Source of the DNA: Hyphomicrobiales bacterium
GTDB taxonomy: Bacteria; Pseudomonadota; Alphaproteobacteria; Rhizobiales; Rhizobiaceae
Assembly (NCBI GenBank): GCA_900471815.1
Contig: UICE01000007.1
Span: forward strand, 62,001 to 126,000
Direction: 5' to 3'
Length of the DNA stretch: 64,000 bases
Positions 34,023-57,558 of the stretch are shown here, piece after piece. The notes beneath the pieces were generated by a model. That model worked only from the letters and a program-made list of their open reading frames with translations, had not been told where the DNA came from and searched no databases. How positions within the stretch are numbered: the stretch's first letter is position 1; each line of letters begins with the position of its first letter. The position numbers were made by a program, and so were the translations under genes.

Positions 34023-34237
34023 TTCTTGCCTCCAGGCACTGAAACAGTGCTTGCATAAATACGAAACCTGATTTGCTCTAAGCAGGTTTCTGAAAACTGT
34101 CCAACGGTTTTGCGGTAAAATCCTCGACAAAGAAGCTTGCAGAAAGCCCATTTGCAATCGAACCGGCGCACACGGATGATTTTTCTCTTGAAATCCGCCA
34201 AAAGCCACCCCATTCTCTTCGTGTGTTCAACGAACGT

Positions 34238-34251
34238 AAAGGAGGTGATCC
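34238..34251 (+). promoter_or_regulatory. Exceptionally long Shine-Dalgarno sequence
   Basis: AAAGGAGGTGATCC is the exact complement of the 16S rRNA 3' end (GGATCACCTCCTTT) over 14 bases. Its GGAGG core is 7 bases before the ATG at 34253. Ordinary genes in this window match over 4-8 bases. Confidence 0.75.
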
Positions 34252-34252
34252 G

Positions 34253-34321
34253 ATGTCTAGTGATTTCGATATGTGCCACAAGGCGTCTGATGCTACTCTG
34301 CGGAGATCATCTCTCCGTTGA
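34253..34321 (+). CDS. 22-codon mini-ORF in a structured RNA
   Basis: It reads MSSDFDMCHKASDATLRRSS then LR and stop. The product is small, basic at its C-terminus and has no membrane segment. Its reality rests on the 14-base Shine-Dalgarno match and the self-contained downstream hairpins ending in a terminator, not on a known family. The hairpin CGGAGA/TCTCCG (34301-34317) overlaps the last codons. It may be a leader peptide, a dual-function sRNA ORF, or a decoy that binds ribosomes. Confidence 0.5.
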   Translation: MSSDFDMCHKASDATLRRSSLR

Positions 34322-34375
34322 AAACAGCAGCCCGGTCGCGACCGGGTATAGGCCCTTAGGCCAGACGGAATTACG

Positions 34376-34407
34376 GGGCCATCCTTCAAGGGTGGCCCTT
34401 TCCTTTT
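34376..34407 (+). terminator. Terminator of the mini-ORF transcript
   Basis: A 9-bp stem GGGCCATCC/GGGTGGCCC (one G-U pair), loop TTCAA, followed by TTTCCTTTT. It could act on the convergent antitoxin transcript only weakly. Confidence 0.75.
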
Positions 34408-34427: not shown

Positions 34428-34724
34428 TTATAGCGCAGATTTGTTGACATGGGCGGTGAGCCCGACATTGAGCGCCTTCAAAACTGCAAGTGTTGTTTCA
34501 AGGGTAGGATTGCCATTTTCGCTCAAGGAACGATAAAGCTGCTCGCGCGCAAGTCCCGTCTCCCTGGATATTCCAGTCATCCCTTTTGCTCGCGCGACGA
34601 CGCCGAGAGCATGCGCGATATAGGCAGCATCATTTGTGTCCAATGCCTCCGTCATAAAAACAGCAACCGCTTGATCGGAAGTAAGATCTTCTGCCGGATC
34701 ATAGTCGTAAAGTTTTTCGGCCAT
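34428..34724 (-). CDS. Antitoxin of a type II toxin-antitoxin pair (HigA/COG3636-like)
   Basis: A 98-residue protein with a helix-turn-helix: GISRETGLAREQLYRSLSENGNPTLETTLAVLKALNVGL. It matches the addiction-module antidote family usually paired with phage Gp49/RelE-like toxins. Its ATG directly follows the toxin stop (TAAATG). The order toxin then antitoxin is typical of higBA-type modules. It is expected to neutralise the toxin and repress the operon. Confidence 0.85.
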   Translation of the reverse strand: MAEKLYDYDPAEDLTSDQAVAVFMTEALDTNDAAYIAHALGVVARAKGMTGISRETGLAREQLYRSLSENGNPTLETTLAVLKALNVGLTAHVNKSAL

Positions 34725-35018
34725 TTATTCGCTCCACTCTTCTGCAAGACGCTTCGCCATTTTGAGGTCTCGTGCCTGAGTACTTTTATCGCCACCACAC
34801 AACAGAATGACAATCACGTCGCCTCTACGCTGGAAATAAATCCGATATCCCGGCACTTCATGGATGCGCAGTTCACTAACACCTTGGCCTACTGGTGCTA
34901 CATCACCAAAATGGCCAAAAGAAAGACGGTCGAGTCGAGAGGATATCAATGAGCGTACTCTTGGATTTTTAAGACCCAATCGCCATTTTCTGAAGGTATT
35001 TGTCTGCTTCAACTTCAT
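34725..35018 (-). CDS. Toxin of a type II toxin-antitoxin pair (RelE/HigB, Gp49-like)
   Basis: A 97-residue basic protein: FRKWRLGLKNPRVRSLISSRLDRLSFGHFGDVAPVGQGVSELRIHEVPGYRIYFQRRGDVIVILLCGGDKSTQARDLKMAKRLAEEW. The GxGxxELRI(H)xxPGYRIYF core and the C-terminal LLxGGDKxxQxxDI-type end fit the RelE-superfamily mRNA interferases of the addiction-module killer family. It is the first gene of the pair, behind an A/T-rich promoter with TTGACA (about 35054-35049) and repeated GTATTG motifs. Confidence 0.87.
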   Translation of the reverse strand: MKLKQTNTFRKWRLGLKNPRVRSLISSRLDRLSFGHFGDVAPVGQGVSELRIHEVPGYRIYFQRRGDVIVILLCGGDKSTQARDLKMAKRLAEEWSE

Positions 35019-35208: not shown

Positions 35209-36606
35209 ATGTCGGTGGTTACAACTCAAGAAGCCGTGCCGCAGCATGCATGGCGTGATGAAATTGTGGCGATGCTCACCTTGAGTTGGCCCATCATCCT
35301 GACCAATGTCGCGCAGGTCGCGATGACCGCCACCGACGTGATGATGCTAGGCTGGCTGGGTCCGCATGCGCTGGCTGCAGGTGCTCTTGGTACAAATCTC
35401 TATTACGTGCCGATGATTTTCGGTCTGGGCCTCATGACGGCAACAACGCCAATGATCGCACGCGAGCTTGGGCGTAACCGGTTTACGGTGCGGGAAATCC
35501 GTCGCACCGTACGGCAGGGTTTGTGGATCGGCGTCACCATTTCCATACCGATCTGGCTTGTTCTGTGGAACGCAACACCCATTCTTCTGGCAATGGGACA
35601 GGATGCCGATTTGGCTCAGGAAGCCGGCACTTATGTTCGGGCGCTGCAATGGGCCGTGCTGCCATTCTATTTCTATATCGTCTTGCGCTCATTCATGGCC
35701 GCATTGGAGCGTCCCGGCTGGGCGTTGGTCATCGCCTTCCTGGCCGTTGGTTTTAACGCGGTGGCAAACTATGCCCTAATTTTCGGCCATTTCGGATTTC
35801 CCAAGATGGGCATTATCGGTTCAGGAATAGCGACTGCTCTCTCCTCGGTCCTGATGTTTTCCGGCCTTGTGGCCGTTATTTCGCTTGATCGGCGGTTCCG
35901 GCGCTATCGGCTTTTTGGTCGCTTTTGGCGCGCCGACTGGCCGCGTTATGCGCAATTGATGCGATTGGGCCTGCCGATTGCTGCGATCCTGAGCTTTGAA
36001 GTTACAATCTTCAATGCTGCCGCTTTCCTCATGGGCATTATCGGGCCAAGCTCCCTTGCTGCGCATGCCATCGCCATTCAGATCGCATCCATAAGTTTCA
36101 TGGTCCCGCTTGGCTTTGGGCAAGCGGCCACCGTGCGGGTCGGCCGTGCCTATGGCGCGCAGGATTCCGACGGAATTAAAAGAGCCGGCTGGGTCGCCTT
36201 CACTGCCGGTACAGGTTTCATGGCGCTTACCGCCCTGTTGATGATACTGGCACCTTTACAACTCATCCGCGCCTTCATCGATATTCATAATCCGGCCAAT
36301 GCCGAAGTGATTGGTTTGGCCATATCATTTCTGGCTCTGGCCGCCCTGTTCCAGATTTTCGATGGCGCGCAGGCGGTTGCCAGCGGCATGTTGCGCGGTC
36401 TGCATGATACGACTATTCCGATGGTCTATGCCGCGATTGCCTATTGGGGGATTGGCCTGCCCCTATCCGTAGCCTTTGCCTTCTGGCTAGGCATGCAGGG
36501 CGTTGGAATCTGGCTAGGCCTTTTGAGCGGCTTGGCTGCCGCTTCTGTGCTGCTGCTGGGTCGCTGGCTAAGACGAGAGAAGCTCGGGATCGAGATTATC
36601 CGCTAG
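35209..36606 (+). CDS. MATE family efflux transporter
   Basis: A 465-residue transporter with 12 hydrophobic helices in two homologous halves. The NorM-type opening is LTLSWPIILTNVAQVAMTATDVMMLGWLG, with repeated VGRAYGAQD and IFDGAQAVASGMLRGLHDT motifs in the second half. It exchanges Na+ or H+ for cationic drugs or toxins. The ribosome site is weak (GAAAG). Its neighbours give no hint of substrate. Confidence 0.93.
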   Translation: MSVVTTQEAVPQHAWRDEIVAMLTLSWPIILTNVAQVAMTATDVMMLGWLGPHALAAGALGTNLYYVPMIFGLGLMTATTPMIARELGRNRFTVREIRRTVRQGLWIGVTISIPIWLVLWNATPILLAMGQDADLAQEAGTYVRALQWAVLPFYFYIVLRSFMAALERPGWALVIAFLAVGFNAVANYALIFGHFGFPKMGIIGSGIATALSSVLMFSGLVAVISLDRRFRRYRLFGRFWRADWPRYAQLMRLGLPIAAILSFEVTIFNAAAFLMGIIGPSSLAAHAIAIQIASISFMVPLGFGQAATVRVGRAYGAQDSDGIKRAGWVAFTAGTGFMALTALLMILAPLQLIRAFIDIHNPANAEVIGLAISFLALAALFQIFDGAQAVASGMLRGLHDTTIPMVYAAIAYWGIGLPLSVAFAFWLGMQGVGIWLGLLSGLAAASVLLLGRWLRREKLGIEIIR

Positions 36607-57455: not shown

Positions 57456-57558
57456 AGTCATCGCGGTACTCCTCCCATTTTGCCGCGATGGCTGTTCCCC
57501 TCTGGAGGTTTTTAACCTTCACAATTCAGGCCGGGCTTTTTAGTCCGGCTCTTTTTTT
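57456..57558 (+). ncRNA. Candidate AbcR/alpha-r15-like trans-acting sRNA
   Basis: About 103 bases. Stem GTCATCGCGG (57457-57466) pairs over 10 bp with CCGCGATGGC (57483-57492). The 16-base loop holds CTCCTCCC (57469-57476), an anti-Shine-Dalgarno word. A second C/U-rich segment CCCCTCT (57497-57503) is single-stranded, and a terminator ends the RNA. This matches the architecture of AbcR sRNAs of Hyphomicrobiales, Hfq-dependent regulators of ABC transporter mRNAs. Identification is by structure and motif only. Confidence 0.62.
57529..57558 (+). terminator. Terminator of the sRNA candidate
   Basis: GGCCGGGCT pairs with AGTCCGGCT (9 bp, two G-U pairs), loop TTTT, followed by seven Ts. It has the strong hairpin-plus-U-tract form expected of an Hfq-bound sRNA. 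Confidence 0.8.

Follow-up and report, generated by a model that had tools for sequence, protein, structure and literature searches.

In ROSE-type thermometers, the Shine-Dalgarno (SD) sequence is sequestered by a complementary stretch. Among Rfam families, the only convincing known relative of the RNA examined here is CC2171 of Caulobacter (RF01867), which presumably stems from Landt 2008. The accessible parts of other papers cite Landt 2008 as the source of Caulobacter sRNAs, and CC2171 itself surfaces at a single relevant place in the accessible parts of the literature searched, a table row in the Rfam 15 paper. The accessible text of PMC3927594 does not mention an RNA of this type, and CcnA, given as CCNA_R0094 in the portions seen of PMC8959179, is taken to be a different RNA. 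Caulobacter ncRNA regions are described as generally untranslated, two earlier ncRNAs excepted, in the accessible portions of Schrader 2014 (PMC4117421), and sORFs on annotated sRNAs of S. meliloti are reported in those of Hadjeras 2023 (PMC10117765). The literature searched, mainly open-access main texts, yielded no account of the 16S complementarity, the sequence-indifferent open reading frame (ORF) or the mimic of the 16S tail described below.

In this study, we examine an intergenic unit found in a window of 64,000 nucleotides (the whole stretch of DNA that was analysed), together with its relatives in alphaproteobacteria. Our main reading, a tentative one with a probability of about 0.4, is that the unit specifies a regulatory RNA of about 190 nt that stands alone, is gated by ribosomes and is distantly akin to the Caulobacter CC2171 sRNA. 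The analysis widens one Rfam entry, for which the sources found give no function, to a class-wide family with a testable mechanism.

Layout and distribution of the unit

The window unit is probably a self-contained intergenic RNA of about 190 nt. To its left lies a cyclopropane-fatty-acid synthase-like gene that is transcribed away from it (profile search), and to its right, convergent to it, an antidote/Gp49-like toxin pair at 34428-35018 on the minus strand (PF21716, PF05973 just under cut-off). Beyond these two convergent genes, the next plus-strand gene is MatE, with its start at 35209. The parts of the unit are as follows.

34187-34216, plus strand: promoter-like site seen by eye, with CTTGAA at 34187-34192 and CATTCT at 34211-34216
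34226-34237, plus strand: 5' leader with a CAAC/AACAA motif conserved among relatives (alignment A1)
34238-34251, plus strand: full-length SD, complementary over all its 14 nt to the canonical 16S 3' end
34253-34321, plus strand: 22-codon ORF MSSDFDMCHKASDATLRRSSLR, open in relatives, with peptide-level selection undetected
34303-34314, plus strand: internal 16S-tail mimic, predicted to form 11 pairs with 34241-34251
34300-34318, plus strand: at the 3' end of the ORF, a predicted hairpin of 7 pairs with the loop UCAUC at 34307-34311
34330-34347, plus strand: second hairpin, predicted, 7 pairs
34351-34362, plus strand: third small hairpin, GGCC/GGCC, present in the centroid only and absent from the minimum-energy fold
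34375-34407, plus strand: intrinsic terminator, an 11-pair stem (34375-34399) followed by TTCCTTTT

A sequence-only reading of this DNA had already reported a perfect 14-base SD, and 34238-34251, AAAGGAGGTGATCC, indeed complements the canonical 16S 3' end of alphaproteobacteria over 14 nt with 0 mismatches. The four other matches in the window all carry 3 mismatches, where about five with 3 or fewer are expected by chance; a chance SD is rejected by the 0-mismatch match and by the class-wide pattern counts given below. That reading had also joined a 22-codon ORF, hairpins and a terminator into one intergenic unit, and the ORF, three predicted hairpins and the terminator stem bear this out. It had placed the end of the ORF inside a hairpin, which needs correction, as the TGA stop codon (34319-34321) abuts the first hairpin instead; the internal 16S-tail mimic was absent from its description. 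The folding energy of the stretch lies below that of shuffled sequences (z -3.8, reached by 0 of 200 shuffles). The CTTGAA/CATTCT pair was not listed by a sigma-70 scan of the window. With a single copy in its own genome, the element is rejected as a repeat. By eye, a TCA(C/T)GGAA-like motif directly 5' of the terminator recurs in several lineages (window 34364-34376, L278 and L149); GGAAGG in this motif is SD-like and could compete for the mimic. Elsewhere in the window, at 57456-57556 on the plus strand, lies an Rfam ar15 family sRNA (72.5 bits).

Conservation, proposed for checking by a covariance search, proved extensive. DNA similarity found the element in 88 of 151 family genomes, and a covariance model, R1, built from the 77 sequences of alignment A1, matched 115 of the 151, once each, and 125 of 387 class genomes (both at E<=0.001), twice in G162, G533 and G540 and once elsewhere; the E-values of R1 are rough, and the weakest class matches may be chance. 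This conservation across genomes excludes a chance origin of the SD and the unit. A pattern scan gave at least 117 stretches, including ones from Mesorhizobium, Aminobacter, Chelativorans, Aurantimonas, Aureimonas, Jiella and Acuticoccus, in which leader, SD and start are present by construction of the pattern. The pattern AAAGGAGGTGATCNNRTGTC, with at most one mismatch, occurs in 106 of 387 class genomes, and its reversed control in 0 among the matches listed. Outside the class, a 1-mismatch SD-start pattern was found in 6 of 136 sampled genomes (G580, G588, G596, G606, G639 and G644) against 2 for the reversed control, and a search of plasmids for the element gave no match.

The flanking features recur as well. 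Of 148 nonredundant elements, 80 have CTTG 62 to 46 nt upstream of the SD, with a peak at -53 to -56, as compared to 5 of 148 in a control window and 0 of 148 for the reversed word. AAC is present at -18 to -6 in 136 of the 148, many of which were collected by a pattern containing AAC, and a terminator-like stem in 124 relatives versus 2 after letter shuffling. All 77 sequences of A1 share an invariant SD core, AAGGAGGTG; for the most part they were gathered with patterns that include this core, and L254-L256, whose leader differs, are left out of A1. Some relatives carry the SD variant GGAAGG. Judged by these comparisons, the element is a class-wide, nearly always single-copy unit that combines a promoter-like box and a CAAC leader with a full-length SD, a short open ORF, a hairpin and a terminator. 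Two family members with different ORFs, L158 and L249 (MSHCHALN.. and MSHGSAKG..), occur together in G162. In L184, L187, L264, L265 and L319 the same full-length SD precedes an ORF of 55-58 codons with a signal-peptide-like start, possibly a different gene that uses the same start module.

A conserved SD of this kind could also serve as bait, so that the RNA would be a sponge for anti-SD-type CCUCC sRNAs (the alphaR8/Sis family). Such sRNAs exist in the class, SisA-D carrying UUUCCUCCCU according to the accessible part of the source, and an ar15-family RNA lies in the window; the conservation reaches over GAUC, however, past CCUCC-type cores, and we regard the sponge as improbable.

The sequence-only reading had found the unit to fit no feature type known by name. 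A distant relative does have a name, RF01867, although the window element stays under the cut-off of that family, with 31.3 bits against a gathering cut-off of 75. The alignment is full-length (model positions 1-159 of 159), with a nearly identical 5' core, the terminator included and the middle poorly aligned, and further relatives of the element reach 29-50 bits. In the class, 45 of 190 genomes match RF01867 at E<=0.01, the scores descending from 90 bits, and 7 of 190 exceed the cut-off. The 14 controls yield 2 matches, in Caulobacter vibrioides and in Deinobacterium chartae, which is unrelated; one of the two exceeds the cut-off, and the weak end of the score range therefore holds some noise. 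A match of the window RNA to the suhB/mmgR (alphaR8) family was at chance level (17.1 bits, E 0.36).

No gene is consistently placed downstream. Among the 66 elements for which a long ORF was found downstream, the nearest one shares the strand of the element in 28 cases and is opposite to it in 38 (7 of 73 are without a call), and a cis leader or attenuator is rejected on this mixture. A mechanically called ORF of at least 110 codons overlaps the unit in 17 of 73 elements. Among 30 loci with 1.5 kb flanks, relatives of the toxin pair stand beside the RNA in L002 and L003 only; cfa is near the element in 10 of 30 loci, and acs and a quinone oxidoreductase lie beside others, by eye from sequence and translations.

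The reading frame and the RNA around it

Behind the SD, 146 of 147 loci carry an ORF of 21-28 codons (L027 is left out, and some loci are the same place seen twice). In-frame stops within the first 42 nt occur in 0 of 73 nonredundant elements, as opposed to 35 and 39 in the other two frames, and the start codon is ATG in 50, GTG in 21 and TTG in 2. The encoded peptide behaves differently. From codon 4 onwards, pN/pS is 0.90 over 50 independent close pairs (changes 76/92/76 by codon position), 0.96, 1.20, 0.91 and 0.96 in four subgroups, and 0.89 overall for 64 independent pairs, with 98, 132 and 105 changes at the three codon positions. RNA constraint could lower pS in these ratios, and the uniform codon positions argue against peptide selection. 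The reading frame thus appears to be kept and the peptide not, as far as substitution patterns tell.

These values bear on two other explanations. If the unit were a small-protein gene, the peptide of 18-26 residues would be the product, for which the open frame, the retained start codon and a common MS(S/H/N) N-terminus would speak. A pN/pS of 0.89-1.20 in every group, with codon periodicity absent, makes this highly improbable, as does the reading of the hairpin motif described below in different frames. The tiny basic protein offered by the sequence-only reading therefore finds no backing, its peptide being freely variable, and the functional peptide that marks a dual-function sRNA did not emerge either, as no peptide selection was detected (pN/pS 0.89). 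At the other extreme, the unit would be a non-coding sRNA whose ORF is incidental and whose long SD is an RNA pairing site only. CC2171 is listed by Rfam as an sRNA, and Caulobacter ncRNAs are reported as mostly untranslated (PMC4117421, accessible portions), but the absence of frame-0 stops in all 73 elements and the interchange of ATG, GTG and TTG at the start render a purely non-coding RNA distinctly unlikely. An open frame seemingly selected without its peptide also means that a conserved small ORF alone is no proof of a small protein.

Many relatives form an AG-CARY-CY-core hairpin 52-58 nt after the start (76 distinct sequence windows, 258 records), which is the motif read in different frames. 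The hairpin at the ORF 3' end, with its CARY loop in many relatives, competes with pairing of mimic and SD. Among 23 nonredundant examples, 81 of the 92 cells of its four outer pairs hold a standard pair, as compared to a mean of 58.6 and a maximum of 70 in 2000 shuffles; the example from the window is spurious, the motif having matched there behind the ORF. In the A1 helix, 71.8% of cells are paired versus 58.1% in shuffles, 80 cells are doubly changed versus 41, and the covariation score is 0.346 versus 0.196, each value reached by 0 of 500 shuffles and each above all slid versions of the helix. The number of pairs with double changes was unremarkable (402 of 500 shuffles), as was that of further pair types (42 of 500 shuffles; 23 versus up to 27 when slid). 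On this comparative evidence, RNA-level features, namely the covarying hairpin and the 16S-tail mimic, are under selection.

The data suggest that the RNA acts by engaging ribosomes and not by a protein product. In this respect the earlier idea of an RNA unit that engages ribosomes and is untied to one cis gene gains from the class-wide recurrence with promoter-like box and terminator and from the mixed downstream strand, whereas its tiny-protein part falls away.

The 16S-tail mimic and its predicted pairing with the SD

Within or behind the ORF, the RNA carries a stretch resembling the 16S tail. The form of this mimic differs among lineages: it is CTGGATCGTCGCCTC in CC2171-type loci, GGATTGCCTTT in some Mesorhizobium-type loci, GATCATCTCTCC in the window and CCACCTTCCTTT, behind the stop, in putatively Rhizobium- or Sinorhizobium-like loci. 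In the group with 18-residue peptides it lies about 45 nt behind the stop and forms a 14-pair helix in L273. When the SD of each element was matched to the sequence downstream of it in that element, 28 of 73 nonredundant elements reached p<=0.05 (mean z -1.47), and 42 did so against letter-permuted SDs; 45 of the 73 are without a significant mimic. The mean z was -1.64 in 49 diverse elements, and 19 of 59 further loci, related ones included, reached p<=0.05. None of 28 nonredundant long ORFs behind AGGAGG at the same loci did so (mean z +0.38), a control unmatched to the elements in composition. These sets leave out L125 (146 of 147 loci), with an ORF filter of 12-45 for loci up to L147 and none for the others; the test of 73 elements also leaves out L184, L187, L264 and L265, with their ORF of 55-58 residues (262 to 258 records), and L319 is left out of the 59-locus set, the co-adaptation permutation and the energy comparison. 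For the window itself, the duplex of mimic and SD has -14.7 kcal/mol and is borderline when taken alone (p 0.045 and 0.086).

SD and mimic also change together. The 24 Rhizobium-like loci, selected through their peptide pattern, include 21 with the SD GGAAGG; in the 22 nt that follow the stop, CTTCC occurs in 20 of the 21 and CCTCC in none. The two loci with GGAGG have CCTCC and not CTTCC, and the single GGATGG locus has CTTCC as its mimic. In the 21 GGAAGG loci the mean duplex energy is -15.3 kcal/mol with the cognate SD as compared to -11.8 with the canonical one. A permutation of SDs and mimics gave p 0.00075 (n=102) and, without GGAAGG, p 0.019 (n=99), with one row in the set, L330 (the same place as L160), having a misread start. 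A swap test in the group with 18-residue peptides was of no help, as only 2 of 8 loci pair best with their own SD, which in L318 is the worst partner. The switch to GGAAGG may have happened just once, and relatedness in the mimic tests is only partly controlled, by removal of similar sequences. When the canonical 16S 3' end was sought in 12 genomes, it was exact in G047 only, the window's own genome had a place with 2 mismatches and the other 10 had nothing, the rRNA ends seeming mostly absent from the sequence of these 12. As G047 is of the GGAAGG kind and has the canonical 16S end, its SD fits its own mimic better than the ribosome tail predicts. Complementarity of SD and mimic is thus well supported, and the aligned loci indicate that the mimic has changed along with the SD.

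How firmly this pairing holds the RNA closed was examined by folding. In window RNAs ending at 34331 or 34346, the SD core is paired with the mimic at a probability of 0.83, by 10 pairs, and this partial fold is extended by a helix of leader and stop region (34226-34232 with 34316-34322). The segments concerned, TTCAACG and CGTTGAA at the stop codon, can thus lengthen the SD:mimic helix in the partial RNA. In the full-length window RNA the probability falls to 0.13, the SD pairs with the terminator tail at 0.43 and the local hairpin forms. When the RNAs of 73 elements were ended 10 nt past the stop, downstream pairing of the SD showed a modest excess, 0.60 versus 0.45 in shuffles, with 11 of the 73 at p<=0.05. 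Freeing the SD costs a median of 3.5 kcal/mol (n=101; 2.9 in the window), whereas the duplex of SD and 16S has about -30 kcal/mol (-26 in the window; -11.6 for AGGAGG alone). The SD being cheap to free in comparison with that hybrid, at equilibrium the lock cannot exclude the 30S subunit. Folding models therefore leave the pairing of SD and mimic as at most a co-transcriptional or competitive device with no firm off-state, and the preference of the full-length window RNA for the local hairpin lowers our confidence in the ribosome-gated and 30S-sensing readings.

A weak lock is compatible with another explanation, a decoy for ribosomes or the anti-SD, in which the RNA would hold 30S subunits by the 16S 3' tail and so lower SD-led initiation, the ORF and mimic serving for ribosome exit only. 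The strength of the SD:16S duplex relative to AGGAGG alone fits such a decoy, as does a complementarity far beyond the needs of initiation in 106 of 387 class genomes. Against it, a single copy per genome would require very high expression, neither an open ORF nor a co-changing mimic is required, and the GGAAGG lineages have lost the perfect 16S match and retained the match to their own mimic. We consider the decoy unlikely.

Proposed function and comparison with known systems

In the reading that we prefer, a ribosome-gated regulatory RNA, the SD of the nascent transcript would be paired with the 16S-tail mimic until a 30S subunit invades by way of the 14-17 nt complementarity and translates a throw-away ORF. 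Translation would melt the mimic and the hairpin near the stop codon, and the fold would thereby report free 30S subunits. The opened RNA, with its CCUCC-like mimic and its 3' half, could then act in trans, in the simplest case through pairing with other RNAs. We infer the action in trans: no fixed gene accompanies the element in cis, so the output should be in trans. Mere occupation of 30S subunits would be an alternative output, and peeling the 16S tail off an over-strong SD an alternative role for the mimic. A bolder proposal, which we judge rather unlikely, is that the RNA senses free 30S subunits throughout the class: the real 16S tail would compete with an internal copy, translation of the mini-ORF would serve only to keep the switch open, and productless translation would be the signal. 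If competition of this kind involving the 16S tail were true, the RNA would amount to a natural gauge for the availability of ribosomes, an old question in growth control.

Several known systems share single traits with this RNA. Like the ROSE-type thermometers, it has an SD that can pair; unlike in them, the partner of the SD is located inside the ORF or past its end, there is no fixed gene downstream, and a heat-shock gene is absent among the window's neighbours. Alphaproteobacteria also have translated leader and dual-function sRNAs, rnTrpL/peTrpL among them, which are likewise small and have a very short ORF, but rnTrpL, according to the accessible part of its source, is a leaderless attenuator RNA before trpE, whereas the window RNA has a strong SD, no fixed downstream gene and undetected peptide selection. 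The alphaR8/SisA-D and other CCUCC sRNAs have, in the accessible text on them, an anti-SD-like core, as does the mimic of the window RNA.

The alignment with CC2171 spans the full length of that model. Although the ORF, mimic and hairpin differ, CC2171 and the window RNA have in common CAACaAucG-AAAGGAGGUGAUCC-(A)GUG-UCU at the start and a terminator, and from its letters the CC2171 consensus can be read as a short GTG ORF. We take the loci as one broad family with CC2171, part of whose common core is dictated by the 16S sequence.
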